This document shows, piece after piece, positions 5,640 through 15,800 of a stretch of 64,000 nt of DNA. Origin of the DNA: Amanita rubescens (Eukaryota; Basidiomycota; Agaricomycetes; Agaricales; Amanitaceae); NCBI GenBank assembly GCA_015039365.1, contig WION01000181.1:1-64000 (forward strand), written 5' to 3'. The position numbers and the translations under genes were made by a program. Below the pieces are notes generated by a model, which was not told where the DNA came from, searched no databases, and saw only the letters and a program-made list of their open reading frames with translations. Within the stretch, counting starts at the first letter, position 1, and every line of letters begins with the position of its first letter.

Positions 5640-6655
5640 CGTCGCTAGCTCCAAGGCATCAGCAAGGCATAAACAAGGATAAGGGTAAACGTACTTGAAT
5701 AAGGCAACAAATTCACCCAAATTGGAATTGTCATGGCCACATCAGGGGTAGCATAACTGCGTGACGAAGAGGCCATACGGTTGTGGTCAGAGGAAAATGC
5801 ATCCGCAGGGAGCATGTTCGATACGTTGCTAGCTCAAGGCGTCAGCAATAACTGCGTGACGAAGAGGCCATGTTGTGGTCAGAGGAAAATGCATCCGCAG
5901 GGAGCGCGTTCGATACGTCGCTAGCTCCAAGGTGTCAGCAATAACTGCGTGACGAAGAGGTCATGTTGTGGTCAGAGGAAAATGCATCCGCAGGAAGTGC
6001 GTTCGATACGTCGCTAGCTCCAAGGTGTCAGCAATAACTGCGTGACGAAGAGGCCATGTTGTGGTCAGAGGAAAATGCATCCGCAGGAAGTGCGTTCGAT
6101 ACGTCACTAGCTCCAAGGTGTCAGCAATAACTGCGTGACGAAGAGGCCATGTTGTGGTCAGAGGAAAATGCATCCGCAGGAAGTGCGTTCGATACGTCGC
6201 TAGCTCCAAGGCATCAGCAATAACTGCATGACGAAGAGGCCATGTTGTGGTCAGAGGAGAATGCATCCGGAGGAAGTGCGTTCGATATGTCGCTAGCTCC
6301 AAGGCGTCAGCAATAACTGCATGACGAAGAGGCCATGTTGTGGTCAGAGGAAAATACATCCGCAGGAAGCGCGTTCGATACATCGCTAGCTCCAAGGTGT
6401 CAGCAAGGCATAAACACGGATAAGGGTAAACGTACTTGAATAAGGCAACAAACTCACCCAAATTGGAATCGTCGCGGCCACATCAGGGGTAGCATAACTG
6501 TGTGACAAAGAGGCCATGTTGTGGTCAGAGGAAAATGCATCCGTAGGGAGTGCATTCAATACGTTGCTAGCTCCGAGGCGTCAGCAATAACTGCATGACG
6601 AAGAGGCCATGTTGTGGTCAGAGGAAAATGCATCCGCAGGGAGTGCGTCCATGCG
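5640..6655. repeat. 93-bp minisatellite with larger duplicated blocks
   Basis: A tandem repeat with a strict 93-bp period. The anchor TGACGAAGAGGCCATG recurs at about 5857, 5950, 6043, 6136, 6229 and 6322, and again at 6503 and 6596. The first step (5762 to 5857) is 95 bp. The unit runs from ATAACTGCGTGACGAAGAGG through GAAAATGCATCC to TAGCTCCAAGGTGTCAGCA. Because 93 is divisible by three, one minus-strand frame stays open over several copies (5961-6461) as a 31-residue repeat. A longer block holding GGATAAGGGTAAACG and CATCAGGGGTAGCATAACT occurs near 5560, 5680-5760 and 6420-6500, giving a higher-order structure. Whether the repeat is translated cannot be told. Confidence 0.85.
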
Positions 6656-6659
6656 CCAT

Positions 6660-7135
6660 AGCTGCGTGTAGGCCACTGATTGGTGGACTCCATTCCTTTC
6701 CTTTACCTCATAAACTCTGGAATTTCAAGAGACCGATGAGAGACCAAGAACATGAAATGAATTGGAAGACGCACCCCATAAGCACTAGTTAAGACTGCTC
6801 CATTCCAGGTACTGTTGGATATTCATATGGAGTAAAAAACCGTAAAAAACCTTAAAAAAGTTAATCAAAGTCCGAAAATGCTGTCTAAGTTGTTTACCGT
6901 ACCAAGTCCCTTCCGTGATCCTAACCAAACCAAGAATCGTGCGGCAGAGTAGAGACTATGTGCTCCGTTTCAGGCACTGCGGGATTGTCAAACAGGGCAA
7001 CCGACTCTGAAACCCAGTTAGATTCGTCCAAAGTCAGAAAACGCCGTTATACCGTGCAAAATATTGTAGCCAATCTGTGTATATATGTAATGACCGCCCT
7101 GTTTTCGTTGACCAGTCGGTTAAAGGTCTGAACGG
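6660..7135. other. intergenic sequence left of the LTR element
   Basis: No coding segment is recognised. There are short A-runs (TAAAAAACCGTAAAAAACC near 6834). The last 59 bp (from about 7077) are the first half of a roughly 112-bp duplicated unit whose other half lies beyond the retrotransposon at 15627. This is the left flank of the insertion. Confidence 0.6.
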
Positions 7136-7622
7136 TGAAACAATAAAGAGAAGGCCGACGTGGAACAGTGTTCGGCCAAAGGGGCTACGGAGGTCTGACC
7201 GATGTGCTTAAGTGCGATAGAGTGCCGAGAGCGGAGGAGAAGGAACGGAACGGTGACCGAGTCACCGAGCGAGAAGGAGAACGGAAATCGGACGCAAGGG
7301 AACCAGAAAGAGAGCGGAAGTGAGACCGGCTGTATATTCGATGTCCAACTACTACAGACAATGCCGTATATATACTACGAGGACATGAGGCTTACCTGCG
7401 ACGAGCCTTCCTCCGAGTCCGTTGGTCCGTGCGCGTCTAGGTGCCCCGTTGCGTTCGAATATCGCTCAAGTTGCGGGAATGGCCCTGTCGGAATGTGGCC
7501 GAAGGTCGTTGGCGCGAAGGTTTGACTTCGGAAGCTTCCGTGATGCGTGATGTGATGCCGAGAATCGGAATGCGGTGCGCTTCGGTGTTCGGTTCCAACG
7601 TAGCCGGAACCGGCTCGTTACA
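7136..7622 (-). repeat. 3' LTR of the gypsy element
   Basis: 487 bp, beginning TGAAACAATAAAG and ending CTCGTTACA on the plus strand (TG...CA ends). It reads identical to the copy at 15136-15622. Just inside it, in element orientation, a partly purine-rich stretch (AAAAGACCCCGGGAGG, reverse complement of about 7623-7638) could be the polypurine tract. Confidence 0.93.
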
Positions 7623-7732
7623 CCTCCCGGGGTCTTTTAATACTGACCTCCTGGTCAGGTCCGAGGAGATAAGAGGGCGATAAGAGATAGAGGGGAGTGG
7701 AGGGTGGGTTCTTCTCTTCCTCTTCTACAATC

Positions 7733-8923
7733 ATGTCGGCCGTATCCGCAGGCGGTGGGAGCAGTGTCACGAAGCTGATAGCGCGCAAGCTGGACAAGCA
7801 CGTCGAGGCGTTTGGCGAGCGGTTGCTGGATGTGCCAGAGGGGGAAGTAAACTTGAGCAATGAGGGGGATGTCCGGAAATGGCTAGAGCTGGCGAAGAAC
7901 GACGTGGTGAGTAAGGGGTACGTTGTCGTTGGCGGAAACTAATCGTGTCCAGGAGAAGATCCGGACGTATAGCCGGGAGCTTGCAGATGCGGGGTCAACG
8001 ACAAAGCTTGTTTCAGTCATCACGGATGGCCTCGTCCAGTACGATAAGCTCGGCGTCGGTCTACGAGAACTTAGTACAACGGTGAACCTGGCAAGGTCCT
8101 CCTCCGGGGCGAGTTTGCGTCCAGAGGACTCTGCGAGCCATATCAGTTCCGGTTCGGTTGCGCGAAGTAGCGTCCTAGAAAGGTCGTCGCATGCGGGTGC
8201 GCCTGCTGGCCGTCAAACTGTCCCAGAAGTGCCAGTCGTCGATTTCAAAAGACCTGCGCCGAGGCCTCGTACTACACGCAGTAAGGTCGCTCCGGCTGTC
8301 GGTTCAGAGTTGATTTCCCTTCAACAGGTACGTTGGTGATGGACTATGTCGCGGTCCCTCAGCTGATGCCCGAATCGCAGCGCTGCGAAACTTGCGTAAG
8401 GCTGAATAAGGCCTGTGTCTTCTCCGGTGACCATACGGCATGCGATCTCTGTCGAGCGAAGAAGGTAAGGTGCGCCATGCCTGGTGCGGATGCTCCTGTC
8501 GTGCGATCCTCAAGCGTCGCGTCGTCGGCTGCTAAGAGCATTCCGTCGTCTTTGGCGCGAGGTGTAGGCGCACTTGGGGTATCGGGCTCGTCGGTGAAGA
8601 CGCCGTCTCGGTCGGATAAACGGAAGATCGAGGTTGGGAGTAGTCCGGAGGAGCAACCTCCGCGTAGGCGTAGCAAGACGGATCTGAAGGAGGCCGGTGA
8701 AGTGGAGACGGGTTCTGAAGGCGGTTCGGGAGCGGGTAAGACGAAGGCGGGCTATGAGGATCGTATCGGCAGGCTGGAGAGGAAGCTGACGAGATTCCAG
8801 GACCTTTACAAGCGGTCGGTGGAGGACCTGCAGGCAGACATGAAGGAGCTAAGGGAGGAGATGGCCGAGGAGGTTCCCCAGGCGAAGAGCAAGGGCAAGG
8901 GCAAGGGCAAGGGCAAGGCGTAG
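7733..8923 (+). CDS. antisense accessory gene in the retrotransposon: Zn2Cys6-like, coiled-coil protein
   Basis: A spliced plus-strand gene inside the minus-strand gypsy element, between pol and the 3' LTR. Exons are 7733-7906, 7953-8327 and 8381-8923. Introns of 46 and 53 nt have GTGAGT...CAG and GTACGT...CAG ends and CTAAT/CTGAT branch-like boxes. The frame closes exactly to 363 residues. Near residue 184 it has C-x2-C-x6-C-x8-C-x2-C-x6-C, the spacing of fungal Zn(II)2Cys6 DNA-binding clusters, with CDLCRAKKVRC in the second half. A basic segment (DKRKIE, PPRRRSK) follows, then a heptad-rich coiled coil near residues 305-345 and a KGKGKGKG tail. Start is the first ATG, 110 bp from the LTR. 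It ends tail to tail with pol, 110 bp apart. Function is unknown; DNA binding or regulation is inferred only from the motif. Confidence 0.8.
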
Positions 8924-9033
8924 GATTCGGAGGACTCGGGTTCGGTGCTCGTCGCGGGCTCCTGTAATAAGAAGTGATTAAACGAATGTACCTGTACTTT
9001 GTAGCGAAAACTATATGCATATCCTCGGAGCAT

Positions 9034-12000
9034 TCAGAGTTCAGACTCGGGTAGGTCATCGACCTCCGTTAGTGCCTCATCAATGAAACCATCACCATCG
9101 CCGTCAGCGAGGGAGGCTTCGTCGGGCGAGTCGTGTGTCATCGTATAAAGCTCCTCATCGGATCTATTAAGTAATTGTGAAAGCCGCTCACCCGGTGCAA
9201 TACTGCGTGATCGGTAAGGAATTAAACGTTTGGCTGCGTACCGTAACTTAGAAAGGGTTCCATCGGTCTCGGCGAGAATATACGATCCTCCTTGGGTTTT
9301 CCGGATAACGACCATCGGTCCGAGGTACCGGGGTTTTGTTTTACGATCGAGTTCCATATCGATCTTGTTATTACGGACGAGGACTAAATCTCCCTTCTTG
9401 AAGCGGAAGTTCTTGATCGTATGCTGGAAGCGCTGCTCAAGCTTGCGAACGGCGTTAAGCCGGGACTTGTAGACTTTGTCGCGGATGATTTTGAGATCGG
9501 CCGGACGTTTCTGTAGCTGTCGGGCACGGTGGGCGAGCAAGTCCTGTCTCGAGAGCTCGGATGTAATCGGCGGGCAAAGGTAAGTGGCTTCCGAGATGTC
9601 GAGGGGCAGCGTCGGCTCGGTTCCGTGGGCGATGAAGTATGGGCTGTAGCCGGTAGATGGGTGTATCGTAATGCGCTCGGCCCAGAATACGGATGGCGCG
9701 ACTTGACTCCACTTCTCGGGTTTACCGTCGGCTGCTTTGATGAGAGATTCTCGGACGTCAAAATGTCGGCGTTCGACGATGCCATTGGCCTGTGAGTTGT
9801 ACGGGGATATTCGGATGTGGTTGATACCGTATCGGTGGCGGAGGACTTCTAGAGCAGCTACATAGGGCGTTCCGTTGTCGGTGACAATGACTTCTATGGC
9901 TCCGTGGCGGCAGAGAATATCTTCGAATATGAACTTGGCGATAGCTGTTGCGTTTTCGGAGCGGAGCATTTTGTACTCGGGCCATGCGGAGAGAGAGCAT
10001 CTTGCTTGCGTGATGTAGGTAAATCCGCCGGATGCTGGCATCTTCATGGTGTCCATGTGTACGATTCGGAAGAGACCTCCGGGCTCTGGAACAGTCGGCG
10101 GAATGTGTAGGCGTTGGGCGTTTCGGATCTGGCAGTTATGACACGTCCGGACGTACCATTTAACGTCGTAGTCAAGGGAGGACCACCAGAAACGGTCTCG
10201 GATACGAGCGCGAGTCGCGAAGATGCCTTTGTGTCCGGTGTCATCGTGTGCTTCCTGTATGATCTGTAGTCGCTTGGAGTCGTTGAGGATGACGAGCTTG
10301 TGTCGGCGGTGATCGTCTCGGTACCAGAGCCGGTCGCCTTGAATAAAGAATCGCTTGGCCTTGTTGAGCCATTGTCGGAATCGATCGGCTGACATGTCGG
10401 GCGGCCGTTGCGGGTTTTTGAGGTAGGCTTCAATCCTGAGTATGTCGGCGTCTCGGGCTAGCTGTTTTTCGGATCGGGAGAATATGTCGGGGCCGTCAGT
10501 TCCGGTGGCATAGCATGCGGCGGTGAGGTGCGGCTTGAAAGTCCAGTTGGCGGCCTCGATACAGAATGCGTTAGCTTCGTCAATCCAGTCGTCCGGGTCG
10601 GAGTCGTCTGGAGGCTCGTCCTCTTCGGATGCTCGGCGCCTAGATAATCCGTCGGCGGGAGTGTGCTTCTTTGCGGAGACGTGGCGAAGTTTGAAGTCGA
10701 AGAGGAGGATTCCTGCTATCCATCTGTTAATCGTGTTATTCGGCTGGATATCCGGGTTATTGATCATTCCTTTAATATACTTAGCGTCCACCTCGACTAC
10801 AAGATTTTTGACGCCGATGATGAATATCCGGGTAGCTTTGAGCGCGCGGAAGAGTCCGTAAAGCTCGAGTTTGGCCTGGGAGTATCGTTGTTCTCGCTCG
10901 TTGAAGGTAATAGATCCATAGCGGTTCGGATAGCGCTTCTTGTCGGGACCGATCTGTGATAGCCAGTATCCGACAGCGTACCAGGATGAGTCGACGGCTA
11001 GGATAACCTCGAGAAGTGATTCGTAGTCGATGCCTCGGATGGCGTTGCAATTGATAGCGATGAGCTTGAGGTTCTCGAAGGCGGCGATATGGTGACCAAT
11101 AAATTCGAACTCGACGCCCTTCCGTAGGAGTTCCGAGAGTGAGCGAGCGTGTTCGGCATAGTCTTTGACGTAGATGCGGATGGTGCCCATAGTTCCTAGA
11201 AAACCTCTAACTTCGGTGATAGATTCGGGGATAGGCCAGTTCCTGATCTTTTCGATTCGTGAGTCGTCCGGAAGGCGTCCTTCGTAAGTGCATTTGTGTC
11301 CGACGACGATAGCTTCTGGAATACAGAAAAATGACTTCTTTCCGGAAAAGGTACCGCCGGCGTGTTTGACGCGTTGGATAACTCGGTTAATGTTCTGGAT
11401 GTGTTCCCATACGAAGCGTCGGATGCCAGAATTTTCGGGGATGGTCTCGAAGGTTCCGTCGGGGAGCTCGTAGCGGGTTTTCGGTCCTTTACAGGGGCAG
11501 TCGTCGACGAAGGGTTTGGTGACATGCGGAATTTCATCTTGAAGGATATAGGTGAGGTCGCCGTGCTGGATCTGCATCGAGTTGGTGTATCCCATCGGAA
11601 TAGACGTGAGGCGGAAGGTACCGAGAGGCGTTTGGAAGGTCGTAAGGTCTCGGGATTCGGTGGCAAGGCGGCGCTGGTCAAAACCGACGAATAGATCAAA
11701 GGTAGCGTAACATGAGTACCCACCAAATGACTCGGCGAGTAGTTCTACGTTCGGCGGCTGTCCAGAGTCTTTGATAGTGACGGCGTTAAGCGGCTGTAGG
11801 TCGTGGACGATGCGCAATGATTTCCCGTCTTTCTTGTAAACGCAGAACCAGCGGGACCGATAGGATGAGCTGGACGGCTCGTAGACTCCGGAAGCGATTT
11901 TGTCTTTGATGATGCGTACGATCTCGTTGTATTTGCCAGGCGGAATCGGCATGTTCTTTAGCGTCCAGGGCACGTGTTCAATGGTCGGAATCACCACGGG

Positions 12001-12714
12001 GTCGAAGTAGTCGTCGGAGAACTTCCCTTTTTCTGCTTCGGTCCATGCGAAGCCTTCTTCGTGTATGCGGATCAGATGGTGGATGAGCTTTTCTTCTTCG
12101 GCGGTTAAGAATCCAGTGGGGTTGATATTTTGTGCCTGCATTCGTTCTTCGGTGTATCGGGTTCCTGGGGTAAAGTCCGGTGGCTGTGTCGGAAGGGTAG
12201 GGAGATCGGCGAGGGGATCGGATGGTATGCGGCGGATAATTCGGAATTTCTCGGGTAGCGTGGTAGCGACTGGCTTAATTCGGTTGGCGACTTTCTTATA
12301 TGCTAGTGTTTCGGCGGCGGGGACAAAATTAAATTCGAGCTCTGTAGTACTGATATGTCCGTTGTAAGGTAAGAGTATATTACCGATCATTCTGGGCGCG
12401 GTCAACATGTCCAAGAAATGCTCCTCCGACAAGTGGTATGGGTTGTCTCCCTTTCCAACTGTGTAAACGGTCGGCGCGTCGGTAGTTTCGGGCGTTGGCG
12501 TAGTGGCATCGGGGTCAGCGGGATTAGCGATCGTCGGTTGATTAAAGATGGTTGTGGGTGTGATATCGTGTATGTGCGGCGTAGATGTATGTACGTTTGG
12601 CAGTTCTTCATTATTGACATGTTTGGTGGGCGACTGCGGATTCCGAGCGTCTCGTCTCCGTGTGGGCGATTCATCGACAATTAAAAACCCGTTTTGACGG
12701 TATGTGCTCCGCAT
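9034..12714 (-). CDS. gypsy pol: reverse transcriptase, RNase H, integrase
   Basis: A single open frame of 1226 codons that copies element RNA into DNA and integrates it. Visible parts: reverse transcriptase around residues 270-450 with the catalytic FVDDC near residue 400 and the basidiomycete-typical FQTPLGTFRLTSIPMGYTN; RNase H with AVDSSWYAVGYW near 575 and VEVDAKYIKGM further on; integrase with the HHCC zinc motif (HDDTGHKG…CHNC, about 823-860) and DDE triad (HMDTMK, VTDNGTPY, VERRHF, about 885-980); and a C-terminal GPMVV module. No chromodomain is seen. The frame is -1 relative to gag and overlaps it by 34 bp. Expression by ribosomal frameshifting is more likely than use of the ATG at 12714. 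Confidence 0.95.
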   Translation of the reverse strand: MRSTYRQNGFLIVDESPTRRRDARNPQSPTKHVNNEELPNVHTSTPHIHDITPTTIFNQPTIANPADPDATTPTPETTDAPTVYTVGKGDNPYHLSEEHFLDMLTAPRMIGNILLPYNGHISTTELEFNFVPAAETLAYKKVANRIKPVATTLPEKFRIIRRIPSDPLADLPTLPTQPPDFTPGTRYTEERMQAQNINPTGFLTAEEEKLIHHLIRIHEEGFAWTEAEKGKFSDDYFDPVVIPTIEHVPWTLKNMPIPPGKYNEIVRIIKDKIASGVYEPSSSSYRSRWFCVYKKDGKSLRIVHDLQPLNAVTIKDSGQPPNVELLAESFGGYSCYATFDLFVGFDQRRLATESRDLTTFQTPLGTFRLTSIPMGYTNSMQIQHGDLTYILQDEIPHVTKPFVDDCPCKGPKTRYELPDGTFETIPENSGIRRFVWEHIQNINRVIQRVKHAGGTFSGKKSFFCIPEAIVVGHKCTYEGRLPDDSRIEKIRNWPIPESITEVRGFLGTMGTIRIYVKDYAEHARSLSELLRKGVEFEFIGHHIAAFENLKLIAINCNAIRGIDYESLLEVILAVDSSWYAVGYWLSQIGPDKKRYPNRYGSITFNEREQRYSQAKLELYGLFRALKATRIFIIGVKNLVVEVDAKYIKGMINNPDIQPNNTINRWIAGILLFDFKLRHVSAKKHTPADGLSRRRASEEDEPPDDSDPDDWIDEANAFCIEAANWTFKPHLTAACYATGTDGPDIFSRSEKQLARDADILRIEAYLKNPQRPPDMSADRFRQWLNKAKRFFIQGDRLWYRDDHRRHKLVILNDSKRLQIIQEAHDDTGHKGIFATRARIRDRFWWSSLDYDVKWYVRTCHNCQIRNAQRLHIPPTVPEPGGLFRIVHMDTMKMPASGGFTYITQARCSLSAWPEYKMLRSENATAIAKFIFEDILCRHGAIEVIVTDNGTPYVAALEVLRHRYGINHIRISPYNSQANGIVERRHFDVRESLIKAADGKPEKWSQVAPSVFWAERITIHPSTGYSPYFIAHGTEPTLPLDISEATYLCPPITSELSRQDLLAHRARQLQKRPADLKIIRDKVYKSRLNAVRKLEQRFQHTIKNFRFKKGDLVLVRNNKIDMELDRKTKPRYLGPMVVIRKTQGGSYILAETDGTLSKLRYAAKRLIPYRSRSIAPGERLSQLLNRSDEELYTMTHDSPDEASLADGDGDGFIDEALTEVDDLPESEL

Positions 12715-14474
12715 GTGCTGCGGGACGATCTCGGGCGTGTGACAAGGACGGCGGAGGTTTTAGATTCGGGGCAGGTGATCGTGATGTCCTGGTTGCCATT
12801 GGGGTAGTCGCGGGTGACGGCGGAGAGCAGGGTGAAGAATGGGCGGCCGAGTAAAACTTCGTAAGGTGCGTCTTCCACGATGTATGCTTGGACTTGGACC
12901 GGTAATCCGCCGATAGTCAGGGTGAGGTTTTCGGTGATGCCAAGGGTCCAGTTCGATGTGCCGTTAGCGGTTTCCATCATGATGCGTCTAGAAGCGGAGT
13001 AGCCGGAGCCTGTGCGTTCCCATTTGTCCTTTCTGATGACGATAATCTGAGAGCCGTTGTCGACGACGCATTCGCATTTGACGGATCCGCTGAAAGTACC
13101 GTCTACGACTCGGAGGGTCTCGATAGGCTTAGTGGTGGCCATGAGAACATCGATCGGATCGTCTTCCGGGGGCTCGGTTTCAGTGGCGGAGACCTCATTG
13201 CTAGATGCGGATTCAACGCGTTTGGCGGTAACCAATTGACGTAAGTCTTTTTGGACGGCCGGGGATATTGCAATGAGGTCCTTAGCGGCTAGGGTCACGG
13301 GTAGGCTGAGAAGATGGTCTATGATTCGCTGGGCGGCGGTTGTGTCATCGATCGGCGAGCGGAACTTGAAAGCGGGCGTATCTTTTTCTTTTCCTTTGGA
13401 CGTGGAAGCGACGGGCGGTGTCGTGGGCTGTGGCGGAGCGGGGGTCTGCTTGGATCGGGGCATAGCGGTAGAGTTTTTCTTTTGTTCGGCTGCAAATGTT
13501 TCGGCGTGGTCGGAGATCTCCAGTAGGTTAGCGGAGGCTACGCGTGGCTGCGGCGTGTTCGGCTGTGGATTGTCCTGAAGCCATTTATCAACACGTTCTT
13601 TGAACCATCGTCCGTGCATTCGGTATTTATCCATATTCGGTTCCTCGCCATTCAGGAGCTGTATGCGGCCATCAACTAGCCTGATCTTGCCTTGTCTGAC
13701 GTATTCGTCCCTGACTCGGCACCAAGGAGTTCGGTGCTCTGAATCTCCACAGAAAACGCATCCGTTGAAGAGTCGTTGGGCGAAAGTTTCTGCTGCCTGT
13801 GCGGTCGGAGGGGCAGTTGGATAGGAAGGGGCGACTGGCGCAGGCGCGGGTGCAGGCGTGGGAGGCGTGGTAGCTGCAAGGAGTGCTATCGCAGGTCTGG
13901 AGCTGATAACGAATTGTGCGGCGCTGTTCATTTCCTTTAGATCGTAGCCGTCGTCGGGTCTGACGTCCGGGCATTTGATCGTGAGCCGAGTAGTAATATC
14001 GGGCCTGATGTCAGAAGCGAAGGCTGACATGTACATGATGCTTGCCTCGCGGCCGGTCATGCGGTGTTTAGTTATGAGGTACTGAGCAGTGCCGGAGAAC
14101 TCCCTGTGGTATTCGGCTAGAGTAGTCTCGGAGGTAATGGTCTGGGATGAGTAGCGATCGGTGATGGCACGCAATGCTGCAATGGTGTGGCGTCGATCGG
14201 GCTGTGCCTCGGGGTAGATCTCGCGGATCGCTTTCTTAAAGTCGTCCCAAGCTTTTGGTTCCGCTAGCGCGTCCCTGGTGGCTGTCCAAGTTTCGGAGGA
14301 TTTCTCGTCTGTGTAATAGATCGCCCATTTAACAAGCTCGGCGTCTCCGGAGCGTTCTCGGTCTTCGCAAGTCATCTCGATGTCCTCGAGGTAGCGTTCA
14401 AGACCGCTTGCGGCACCCTGAAAACGGGGCGCCTCTTTGCTAGTCCGGATAGGCATACGGGTCGGGGTAGCCAT
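12681..14474 (-). CDS. gypsy Gag with fused aspartic protease
   Basis: Structural protein plus protease of the retroelement. The capsid region runs from APRFQGAASGLERYLED through FRQ-like helices. A CCHC zinc knuckle CVFCGDSEHRTPWC (C-x2-C-x4-H-x4-C) lies near residue 240, and a retropepsin-like protease with VVDNGSQI (D-N-G in place of the usual D-S/T-G) near residue 470 and LLGRPFF follows. The first in-frame ATG is at 14474 (MATPTRMPIR), giving 597 residues. The frame is open upstream to 15107 (stop 15110-15108) as a proline-rich segment with RPASP repeats but no ATG, so that part is either untranslated or started at a non-AUG codon. It ends in the slippery site leading into pol. Confidence 0.9.
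   Translation of the reverse strand: MATPTRMPIRTSKEAPRFQGAASGLERYLEDIEMTCEDRERSGDAELVKWAIYYTDEKSSETWTATRDALAEPKAWDDFKKAIREIYPEAQPDRRHTIAALRAITDRYSSQTITSETTLAEYHREFSGTAQYLITKHRMTGREASIMYMSAFASDIRPDITTRLTIKCPDVRPDDGYDLKEMNSAAQFVISSRPAIALLAATTPPTPAPAPAPVAPSYPTAPPTAQAAETFAQRLFNGCVFCGDSEHRTPWCRVRDEYVRQGKIRLVDGRIQLLNGEEPNMDKYRMHGRWFKERVDKWLQDNPQPNTPQPRVASANLLEISDHAETFAAEQKKNSTAMPRSKQTPAPPQPTTPPVASTSKGKEKDTPAFKFRSPIDDTTAAQRIIDHLLSLPVTLAAKDLIAISPAVQKDLRQLVTAKRVESASSNEVSATETEPPEDDPIDVLMATTKPIETLRVVDGTFSGSVKCECVVDNGSQIIVIRKDKWERTGSGYSASRRIMMETANGTSNWTLGITENLTLTIGGLPVQVQAYIVEDAPYEVLLGRPFFTLLSAVTRDYPNGNQDITITCPESKTSAVLVTRPRSSRSTCGAHTVKTGF
12684..12690 (-). other. -1 ribosomal frameshift slippery site GGGTTTT
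   Basis: Read on the minus strand, the gag frame ends ACG GGT TTT TAA. The heptamer G GGT TTT fits the X XXY YYZ rule exactly and lies directly before the gag stop (12683-12681). A one-base backward slip gives GGG TTT TTA ATT, which is the pol frame. A slip-stimulating structure downstream was not evaluated. Confidence 0.75.
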
Positions 14475-15115
14475 GTTGCTTTTGGTAGGAGGAGGTGAGG
14501 GAGAACGAGATGGTGTAGGCGGAGGCGGTGTAGGGGTAGGCGAGGTAGGACGGGATGCAGGACGAGGTGAGGCAGGACGAGGTGAGGCAGGACGCGGTGA
14601 GGCAGGACGGGTTGGCTCAGGGGTAAGCGGATCAGGTATCGGTGTCAAGGGCGAGAGCGGTGGCAAGTTCGGAAATAGACTAAAAGCAGTGGGCACGTGC
14701 TGTGAATGAGCCGGTTGAAGTGATTTCGGAGTCGAGGTGCCAAGAAGTGAAGGAGACTGCGGTGCAAGGAGTGCGGATAGGTCTAGAAACGAGGAAAGGT
14801 CGGCAGGTGTTGGATCTCTGATCGGTAGGGGAAATGTTCCCGGAAGGTGCAAGTCTTCGTCGGCTGAACTAGTAGAGAGATCGGATGACGGAGGATCTGT
14901 CGGTGGTTCGGGTTGAGGCTGTTTAGGAGCAGGGGGTGGAGGCTGAGGAGTAGTCGGCTTCCGAGAAGACCAAGGAACGTGTGGTCGGCTGGATGGTCCT
15001 GGCTGAGGTTCGGCGGGCCTAGCTCGGCGTGGACCTAACTGAGATGGAAACTTTTCCGATGCCTTCTGCGCTGCAGGACGGTGAGGACGAATGGCTGGGG
15101 CACAGACCTAAGAGC

Positions 15116-15133
15116 CCCTCGCGGTGGGCTCCA
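15116..15133 (-). other. candidate tRNA primer-binding site
   Basis: On the minus strand the sequence TGGAGCCCACCGCGAGG starts two bases inside the 5' LTR boundary. The initial TGG, complementary to the CCA of a tRNA 3' end, and the position are as expected for a primer-binding site. I cannot name the tRNA. Confidence 0.45.
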
Positions 15134-15135
15134 GT

Positions 15136-15622
15136 TGAAACAATAAAGAGAAGGCCGACGTGGAACAGTGTTCGGCCAAAGGGGCTACGGAGGTCTGACC
15201 GATGTGCTTAAGTGCGATAGAGTGCCGAGAGCGGAGGAGAAGGAACGGAACGGTGACCGAGTCACCGAGCGAGAAGGAGAACGGAAATCGGACGCAAGGG
15301 AACCAGAAAGAGAGCGGAAGTGAGACCGGCTGTATATTCGATGTCCAACTACTACAGACAATGCCGTATATATACTACGAGGACATGAGGCTTACCTGCG
15401 ACGAGCCTTCCTCCGAGTCCGTTGGTCCGTGCGCGTCTAGGTGCCCCGTTGCGTTCGAATATCGCTCAAGTTGCGGGAATGGCCCTGTCGGAATGTGGCC
15501 GAAGGTCGTTGGCGCGAAGGTTTGACTTCGGAAGCTTCCGTGATGCGTGATGTGATGCCGAGAATCGGAATGCGGTGCGCTTCGGTGTTCGGTTCCAACG
15601 TAGCCGGAACCGGCTCGTTACA
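15136..15622 (-). repeat. 5' LTR of the gypsy element
   Basis: 487 bp, sequence identical as far as read to 7136-7622. In element orientation it carries a TATATATAC box near its middle. Confidence 0.93.
15367..15375 (-). promoter_or_regulatory. TATA box in the 5' LTR
   Basis: GTATATATAC lies in the LTR on a strand compatible with minus-strand transcription of gag-pol, about 240 bp before the LTR end. It is the only strong TATA-like motif in the LTR. Confidence 0.5.
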
Positions 15623-15800
15623 ACGGCGATTGACAATATTTGCTAATTGTGACGAATCGCGATGGGAACCCACTGTATGCAACATACATGTAATGACCGC
15701 CCTGTTTTCGTTGACCAGTCGGCCAACGGTCTGAACGGCGATTGACGAGCATTTTTCTGATTGCGGTGAATTGCGATGGGAACGCGCGCTGCATGCAACG
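15623..15800. repeat. duplicated ~112-bp upstream unit interrupted by the LTR element
   Basis: The block TGTAATGACCGCCCTGTTTT…GTCTGAACGG occurs at about 7084-7135 and 15687-15739. The following CGATTGAC…GATGGGAAC…TGCAAC occurs at 15627-15685 and 15736-15798. Joining 7135 to 15627 recreates one complete unit next to a second. The tandem pair thus shows the empty site of the retrotransposon, and it lies upstream of the DUF6532 gene. Confidence 0.8.

Follow-up and report, generated by a model that had tools for sequence, protein, structure and literature searches.

A spliced gene running antisense to gag and pol was found inside a Ty3/gypsy retrotransposon of the fungus Amanita rubescens, within the 64,000 nucleotides analysed here, positions 1 to 64,000 of contig WION01000181.1 (assembly GCA_015039365.1), which are called the window below. 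The gene lies between pol and the 3' long terminal repeat (LTR) and encodes 363 residues once two predicted introns are removed, as the initial annotation, made from the letters of this DNA, had proposed with correct coordinates. Its splice sites are conserved, its frame is under purifying selection, its position is the same in three element families, and a cysteine cluster of the fungal Zn2Cys6 type is predicted in its product. We lean, by a modest degree, towards the view that the product is a DNA-binding accessory protein that would regulate the element, by analogy with the antisense protein HBZ. The parts of the gene are as follows.

7733..8923, plus strand: antisense accessory gene, three exons, 363 residues (splice model; relatives at 36 genome places)
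7709..7732, plus strand: CT-rich leader directly before the ATG (inspection; shared in part with a gene-less derivative)
7733..7906, plus strand: exon 1 (splice model)
7907..7952, plus strand: intron 1, 46 nt, GTGAGT..CCAG (splice model)
7953..8327, plus strand: exon 2 (splice model)
8328..8380, plus strand: intron 2, 53 nt, GTACGT..GCAG, unusually conserved (splice model)
8381..8923, plus strand: exon 3 (splice model)

The coding sequence begins with the ATG at 7733 and closes with a TAG whose last base is 8923; it lies on the strand opposite to the element, between the pol stop at 9034-9036 and the 3' LTR, which ends at 7622. The CT-rich leader is probably the start region of the antisense transcript.

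The genome searched comprised 75.7 Mb in 786 contigs. The DNA search returned 27 gene places at 93-100% identity (family 1), together with an 85-base gene remnant beside a pol N-terminal piece on C780; a second family, of nine places with 44-47% identity in exon 3, came from the protein search. When the last 300 pol residues were used as the query, matches with an identity of at least 74% fell at 36 places, a lower bound from 131 scored candidates of 437, and these were the same 27 and 9 gene places. The gene was therefore linked to this pol type in 36/36 places found, including C30 and C201, in which both pol and gene are truncated; some contigs share flanks and are allelic or duplicated (C337/C475/C478/C479, C30/C201 and C102/C229). 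The order pol, antisense gene, LTR holds in the family-1 loci apart from C19, which has no LTR match within its locus, and C629p, which has an insertion near the gene start. The expectation that the gene always sits between pol and the 3' LTR in reverse orientation was thus borne out in this genome, and instead of a single-copy host gene, or one absent from related elements, we found 36 linked places and three families. Family-1 gene sequences were extracted from 25 of the 27 places, leaving out C588 and the interrupted C126, and 18 of them contain no internal stop. These 18 include C19, without a stop codon at its place, C629p, interrupted within its first 91 bases, and C124, open apart from a 39-base in-frame deletion; complete full-length genes number 15, or 16 if C124 is counted. 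Seven of the nine family-2 copies are open with fixed splice positions, the exceptions being C104, one base shorter inside intron 1, and C590, which is broken.

Both introns are kept with GT..AG in all 25 extracted family-1 genes, and families 1 and 2 have both positions in common. Intron 1 measures 46 nt in the window, 47 nt in most family-2 copies and, as inferred from read-through translations, 45 nt in three database relatives (P0001-P0003). The explanation given in the initial annotation, that introns can persist in the element because its genomic RNA is copied from the opposite strand, fits the shared positions. The element also makes a clear example of a retroelement that keeps spliceosomal introns because splicing and replication concern opposite strands.

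The sequence of intron 2 (8328-8380) is identical between subfamilies A and B. Read in the frame of exon 3, it gives an MDYVxVPRL-like peptide in 6/6 database proteins that cover it; the family-2 intron has no ATG, and in family 3 a stop codon falls on the acceptor. Intron 2 appears to be under a constraint beyond splicing.

The ratio of nonsynonymous to synonymous substitution rates (dN/dS) between the window copy and subfamily B was 0.37 (C782) and 0.33 (C462); it was 0.38-0.49 in other family-1 pairs and 0.65 between two family-2 copies separated by 12 differences. Between families 1 and 2, dN reached 0.65-0.69 and dS was saturated. The annotated frame had the lowest ratio in exons 2 and 3 (0.31 and 0.35) and no internal stop, and length differences among copies keep the frame (3 bases in C782 and C462, 39 in C124). 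Exons 2 and 3 of the antisense gene show purifying selection in the annotated frame. A sense-strand open reading frame in the same stretch was rejected: the frame sharing the third codon position gave 0.32 and 0.38 in exons 2 and 3 but contains internal stops.

Pol is about 75% identical between families 1 and 2, and exon 3 about 45%. The next pol family, family 3 (C157, 49% over the last 300 residues; C160, 41-54% by piece), also has an antisense gene beside the 3' LTR; a third copy of this gene, on C223, had no related pol beside it among the scored matches. The family-3 gene is predicted to encode 461 residues and to have three introns, 63, 50 and 52 nt long, of which the middle one ends directly before the first cysteine of the cluster; its predicted splice product is identical to the NCBI protein F5887DRAFT_1075114 of Amanita rubescens. 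Its position, intron place and cysteine order suggest homology with the family-1 gene, sequence support for which is weak. The constant GT..AG positions, the purifying selection on exons 2 and 3 and the same arrangement in related families argue that the gene is more than a chance reading frame. A more distant family (C769, pol 34%) showed no cluster gene by eye among frames of at least 70 residues in the 3 kb after pol. Database protein searches, with 8000 candidates scored each, gave at least 3 and at least 12 matches to the family-1 and family-2 proteins, respectively, all unnamed or "hypothetical" ENA/JGI proteins; their contigs of 1.0-7.5 kb are probably from metagenomes. A gene with 40-43% identity to the antisense gene of family 3, interrupted by an intron ahead of the cysteine cluster, is present at two further loci, L058 (C50:72201-74900) and C777:25580; no related pol was found on C50 or near C777:25580 among the scored matches.

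The encoded protein has three recognisable parts.

8384..8473, plus strand: six-cysteine cluster CX2CX6CX8CX2CX6C (alignment, fold match)
8618..8674, plus strand: conserved basic motif KRKxEVGSSPE(D/E)QPPRRRS (contains the majority of the invariant columns of alignments A2 and A3)
8744..8869, plus strand: 42-residue helix with a heptad pattern, a coiled coil (AlphaFold2 helix 131-172, predicted local distance difference test, pLDDT, about 88-93)

Zn2Cys6 domains follow the spacing CX2CX6CX5-12CX2CX6-8C. The cluster of families 1 and 2, formed in the window protein by cysteines 185, 188, 195, 204, 207 and 214, agrees with it, and in family 3 (CX2CX8CX10CX2CX7C) the first loop falls outside it. 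All six cysteines are conserved in the seven sequences that span the region among 12 aligned. In the AlphaFold2 model the cluster appears to resemble Zn2Cys6 domains, to which all 13 PDB entries listed by the fold search belong. The coiled coil of the initial annotation was recovered as a long helix, whose heptad score was matched by only 1 of 300 shuffles, and the basic motif is a possible nuclear signal. The linker carries many basic residues and has low AlphaFold2 confidence. Gal4, Ppr1 and Pho7, fungal Zn2Cys6 factors, show the same cysteine spacing and the same order of cluster, linker and coiled coil, and the fold predicted for the antisense cluster appears to be like theirs. The antisense protein differs from them in being encoded by a retroelement, in that the start of the Zn_clus profile (CxxCRxxKxxC) aligns to the second half of its cluster and not the first, and in that no fungal transcription-factor domain was listed in its Pfam search.

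The regulatory reading of these data would run as follows. The stretch of about 110 bp that separates the ATG from the 3' LTR would hold a promoter which, perhaps together with the LTR, would drive an antisense mRNA, opposite to the genomic RNA; this mRNA would be spliced at two introns here and three in family 3. The predicted cluster and coiled coil make the protein a likely DNA-binding one, and the combination of Zn2Cys6-type cluster, basic linker and coiled coil is the reason why dimerisation, nuclear entry and DNA binding are its most likely properties. It would probably act in trans on the element's own sequences and determine how strongly, or when, the sense strand is transcribed. The steps that we infer are expression, entry into the nucleus, binding to DNA and the regulatory outcome. 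HBZ of human T-cell leukaemia virus type 1 (HTLV-1) is likewise antisense, comes from the 3' LTR side and is spliced, and it is a basic leucine zipper (bZIP) protein. The likeness is one of anatomy, namely an antisense, spliced gene at the 3' end of the element for a DNA-binding and dimerising protein (predicted here); HBZ belongs to a vertebrate retrovirus and has a bZIP, and no homology is claimed. An antisense promoter in the 3' LTR of HTLV is mentioned in PMC7264820.

The profile match and exon 1 gave weaker results. The Pfam profile Zn_clus (PF00172) scored 18.4 bits against the window protein, below the cutoff of 21, and covered profile positions 1-15 of 39; the same partial stretch scored 21.8 bits in the relative P0004, six of 12 members were matched at E up to 1, and the profile search of the window protein and members gave no full-length match above the curated cutoff. 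The "exact Zn(II)2Cys6" domain of the initial annotation stands in its spacing and, as far as the model indicates, probably in its fold, and not in its profile match. In exon 1 (58 codons, 19 differences), an opposite-strand frame had the lower dN/dS, 0.47 against 0.59, a result against the annotated frame, and exon 1 is uninformative on the coding frame.

A palindrome lies beside the gene, just inside the LTR.

7643..7658, no strand: palindrome CTGACC-N4-GGTCAG, 20 bp inside the 3' LTR (sequence scan)

It reads CTGACC-TCCT-GGTCAG in the window, and at the matching place, 19-22 bp inside the LTR, family 2 has CTGACT-CCG-AGTCAG and family 3 CTGACT-GTCCCC-AGTCAG. The pattern CTGACN(1-14)GTCAG occurs once per locus scanned (the 64-kb window, L044, L055 and L056) and arose in 0.2% of 2000 mononucleotide shuffles of the 110-bp stretch, of which 11% contained some 6-bp inverted repeat. 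In the genomic RNA the palindrome could fold into a hairpin; an A-rich stretch and a purine-rich tract come next, ahead of the LTR. The antisense gene of C126 (L042) harbours a nested 2.6-kb element with LTRs and a gag frame; this element keeps the palindrome, and neither pol nor the antisense gene was found in it. The palindrome-bearing 25-mer occurs at 98 genome places (96 exact; reversed control 0), 28 of them assigned to family 1 and 70 outside family-1 elements; we take these 70 as mostly gene-less derivatives, one of which was seen. Since the palindrome is kept in the gene-less element and in the other 25-mer copies, it probably serves the element in cis beyond acting as the gene's own promoter.

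The target-site duplication (TSD) of the window element is ACGG on both sides, and the TSD is 4 bp in all four elements seen on both sides (window, C782, C512 and the nested element, with GCGC). CG is central in 19 of 20 family-1 junctions and in 8 of 8 family-2 junctions, a count that leaves out C19, C629p, C588 and C54; the exception is the C337 group (CCAT), and CG makes up 5.8% of the dinucleotides in the window. Nine exact LTR starts were found in family 3, three of them internal, and CGN precedes the 6/6 outer ones, among which C199 and C238 may be one insertion. CGG or CCG lies within 21 of 25 tabulated TSDs (background 0.41, P 1.3e-5).

There are Zn2Cys6 proteins that contact CGG triplets, and the antisense protein could instead be an integration-targeting factor that marks CG/CGG sites or tethers the pre-integration complex to them. 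The CG-centred 4-bp TSD across families, its CGG/CCG enrichment and the presence of the cluster gene in all three families speak for this, but the CG falls within the cut, so that a tether bound there would obstruct it, and integrase by itself could hold the preference, some Drosophila errantiviruses having strict TSDs as well. The gene-less nested element is also at GCGC, though it was possibly served in trans, and on balance we find targeting rather unlikely. A composite is unlikely as well: an intron-bearing gene, owing its introns to the antisense position, for a CGG-reading Zn2Cys6 factor that would pick CG-centred, mostly CGG sites and/or act on the palindrome next to the polypurine tract, and that would be supplied in trans to derivatives without the gene. 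The greater divergence of the protein than of pol between families 1 and 2 and the basic-rich linker of low model confidence would suit a counter-defence or chromatin factor acting on host silencing and not on element DNA; the most constrained parts, however, are the cluster of DNA-binding type and the basic motif, and Pfam listed no similarity to known silencing factors, which leaves this quite unlikely.

A recently captured host gene carried passively, or a host gene beside the element, is highly improbable. Fungi commonly have Zn2Cys6-type proteins and short introns, and C50 and C777 hold a family-3-like gene without clear element context, but the linkage in 36/36 places already contradicts a host origin of this kind, as do the three families, the selection and the matching TSDs around whole elements; the variant of a host gene beside the element is rejected on the pol-gene linkage at the places found. 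Antisense transcription as a control of retrotransposons is discussed in PMC7264820, and the transcript alone might matter, as antisense RNA control or a small-RNA source. The selection on the protein frame disfavours this: dN/dS of 0.33-0.37 between subfamilies, in-frame length differences, constant splice positions and protein motifs conserved in database relatives make it very unlikely.

The initial annotation knew of no clear fungal counterpart, which does not hold: brtn, the antisense gene of Boty elements in Botrytis and Sclerotinia (Zhao et al. 2011, as cited in PMC7264820, PMC8365987 and PMC4227169), is likewise an extra gene antisense to gag-pol in a fungal gypsy element, placed among the antisense open reading frames (aORFs) between pol and the 3' LTR in PMC7264820. 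Boty is an ascomycete element with a chromodomain (PMC4227169), and the cited descriptions of brtn, on which our comparison is based, mention no Zn2Cys6 cluster. The aORFs of plant Tat/Retand elements (TRP28 proteins; Grande gene 23, RIRE2) are antisense, lie between pol and the 3' LTR and are conserved within lineages (PMC11963269, PMC7264820); according to the passages cited, TRP28 is predicted to bind DNA and the Grande aORF has its own promoter. They differ in protein domain, and the word "intron" is absent from the main texts of both papers. As far as these sources go, antisense genes of gypsy elements were known in plants and fungi, and the introns, the predicted Zn2Cys6-like fold, the palindrome and the CG-centred target site set this gene and its element apart. 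None of the titles and abstract openings listed by literature searches on antisense genes with splicing, on Zn2Cys6 domains in retrotransposons and on elements of Amanita described this gene. According to the cited parts of PMC7264820 and PMC11963269, it is not known what antisense accessory genes do in LTR retrotransposons. A predicted fold of DNA-binding type, conserved introns, measurable selection and a neighbouring palindrome make the role directly testable here, in a lineage linked to a strict CG-centred target site.

The carrier element reads on the minus strand.

7136-15622, minus strand: whole Ty3/gypsy element (LTRs, TSD, gag-protease and pol frames)
7136..7622, minus strand: 3' LTR, 487 bp (100% identity to 15136-15622)
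9034..12759, minus strand: pol frame, 1241 residues, with reverse transcriptase (RT), RNase H and integrase (Pfam RT_RNaseH and Integrase_H2C2 above cutoff)
12681..15107, minus strand: gag and protease frame, stop to stop, 808 residues (Pfam gag-asp_proteas, DUF4100)
15116..15133, minus strand: probable primer-binding site, TGGAGCCC, directly inside the 5' LTR (inspection)
15136..15622, minus strand: 5' LTR, 487 bp (100% identity to the 3' LTR; the ACGG TSD flanks the element)

Two LTRs, a TSD, gag-protease and the order RT, RNase H, integrase identify it as Ty3/gypsy, the RVT_1 score of pol being 20.7, below the Pfam cutoff of 29.6. Both long frames are open and the LTRs are 100% identical, and the element is a young copy. 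By inspection, it shares the primer-binding-site letters GTGGGCTCCAG with family 2. A literature search for DUF4100 in combination with retrotransposons found no papers, and no pol relative was confirmed among the viral contigs searched. The host sequence next to the 3' LTR (7081-7135) recurs with 93% identity at 15684-15738, about 60 bp past the far end of the element, and this copy hints at how the uninterrupted insertion site looks. A 93-bp direct-repeat array lies near the element at 5742-6759 of the window (eight overlapping matches to one reference, with one interruption).
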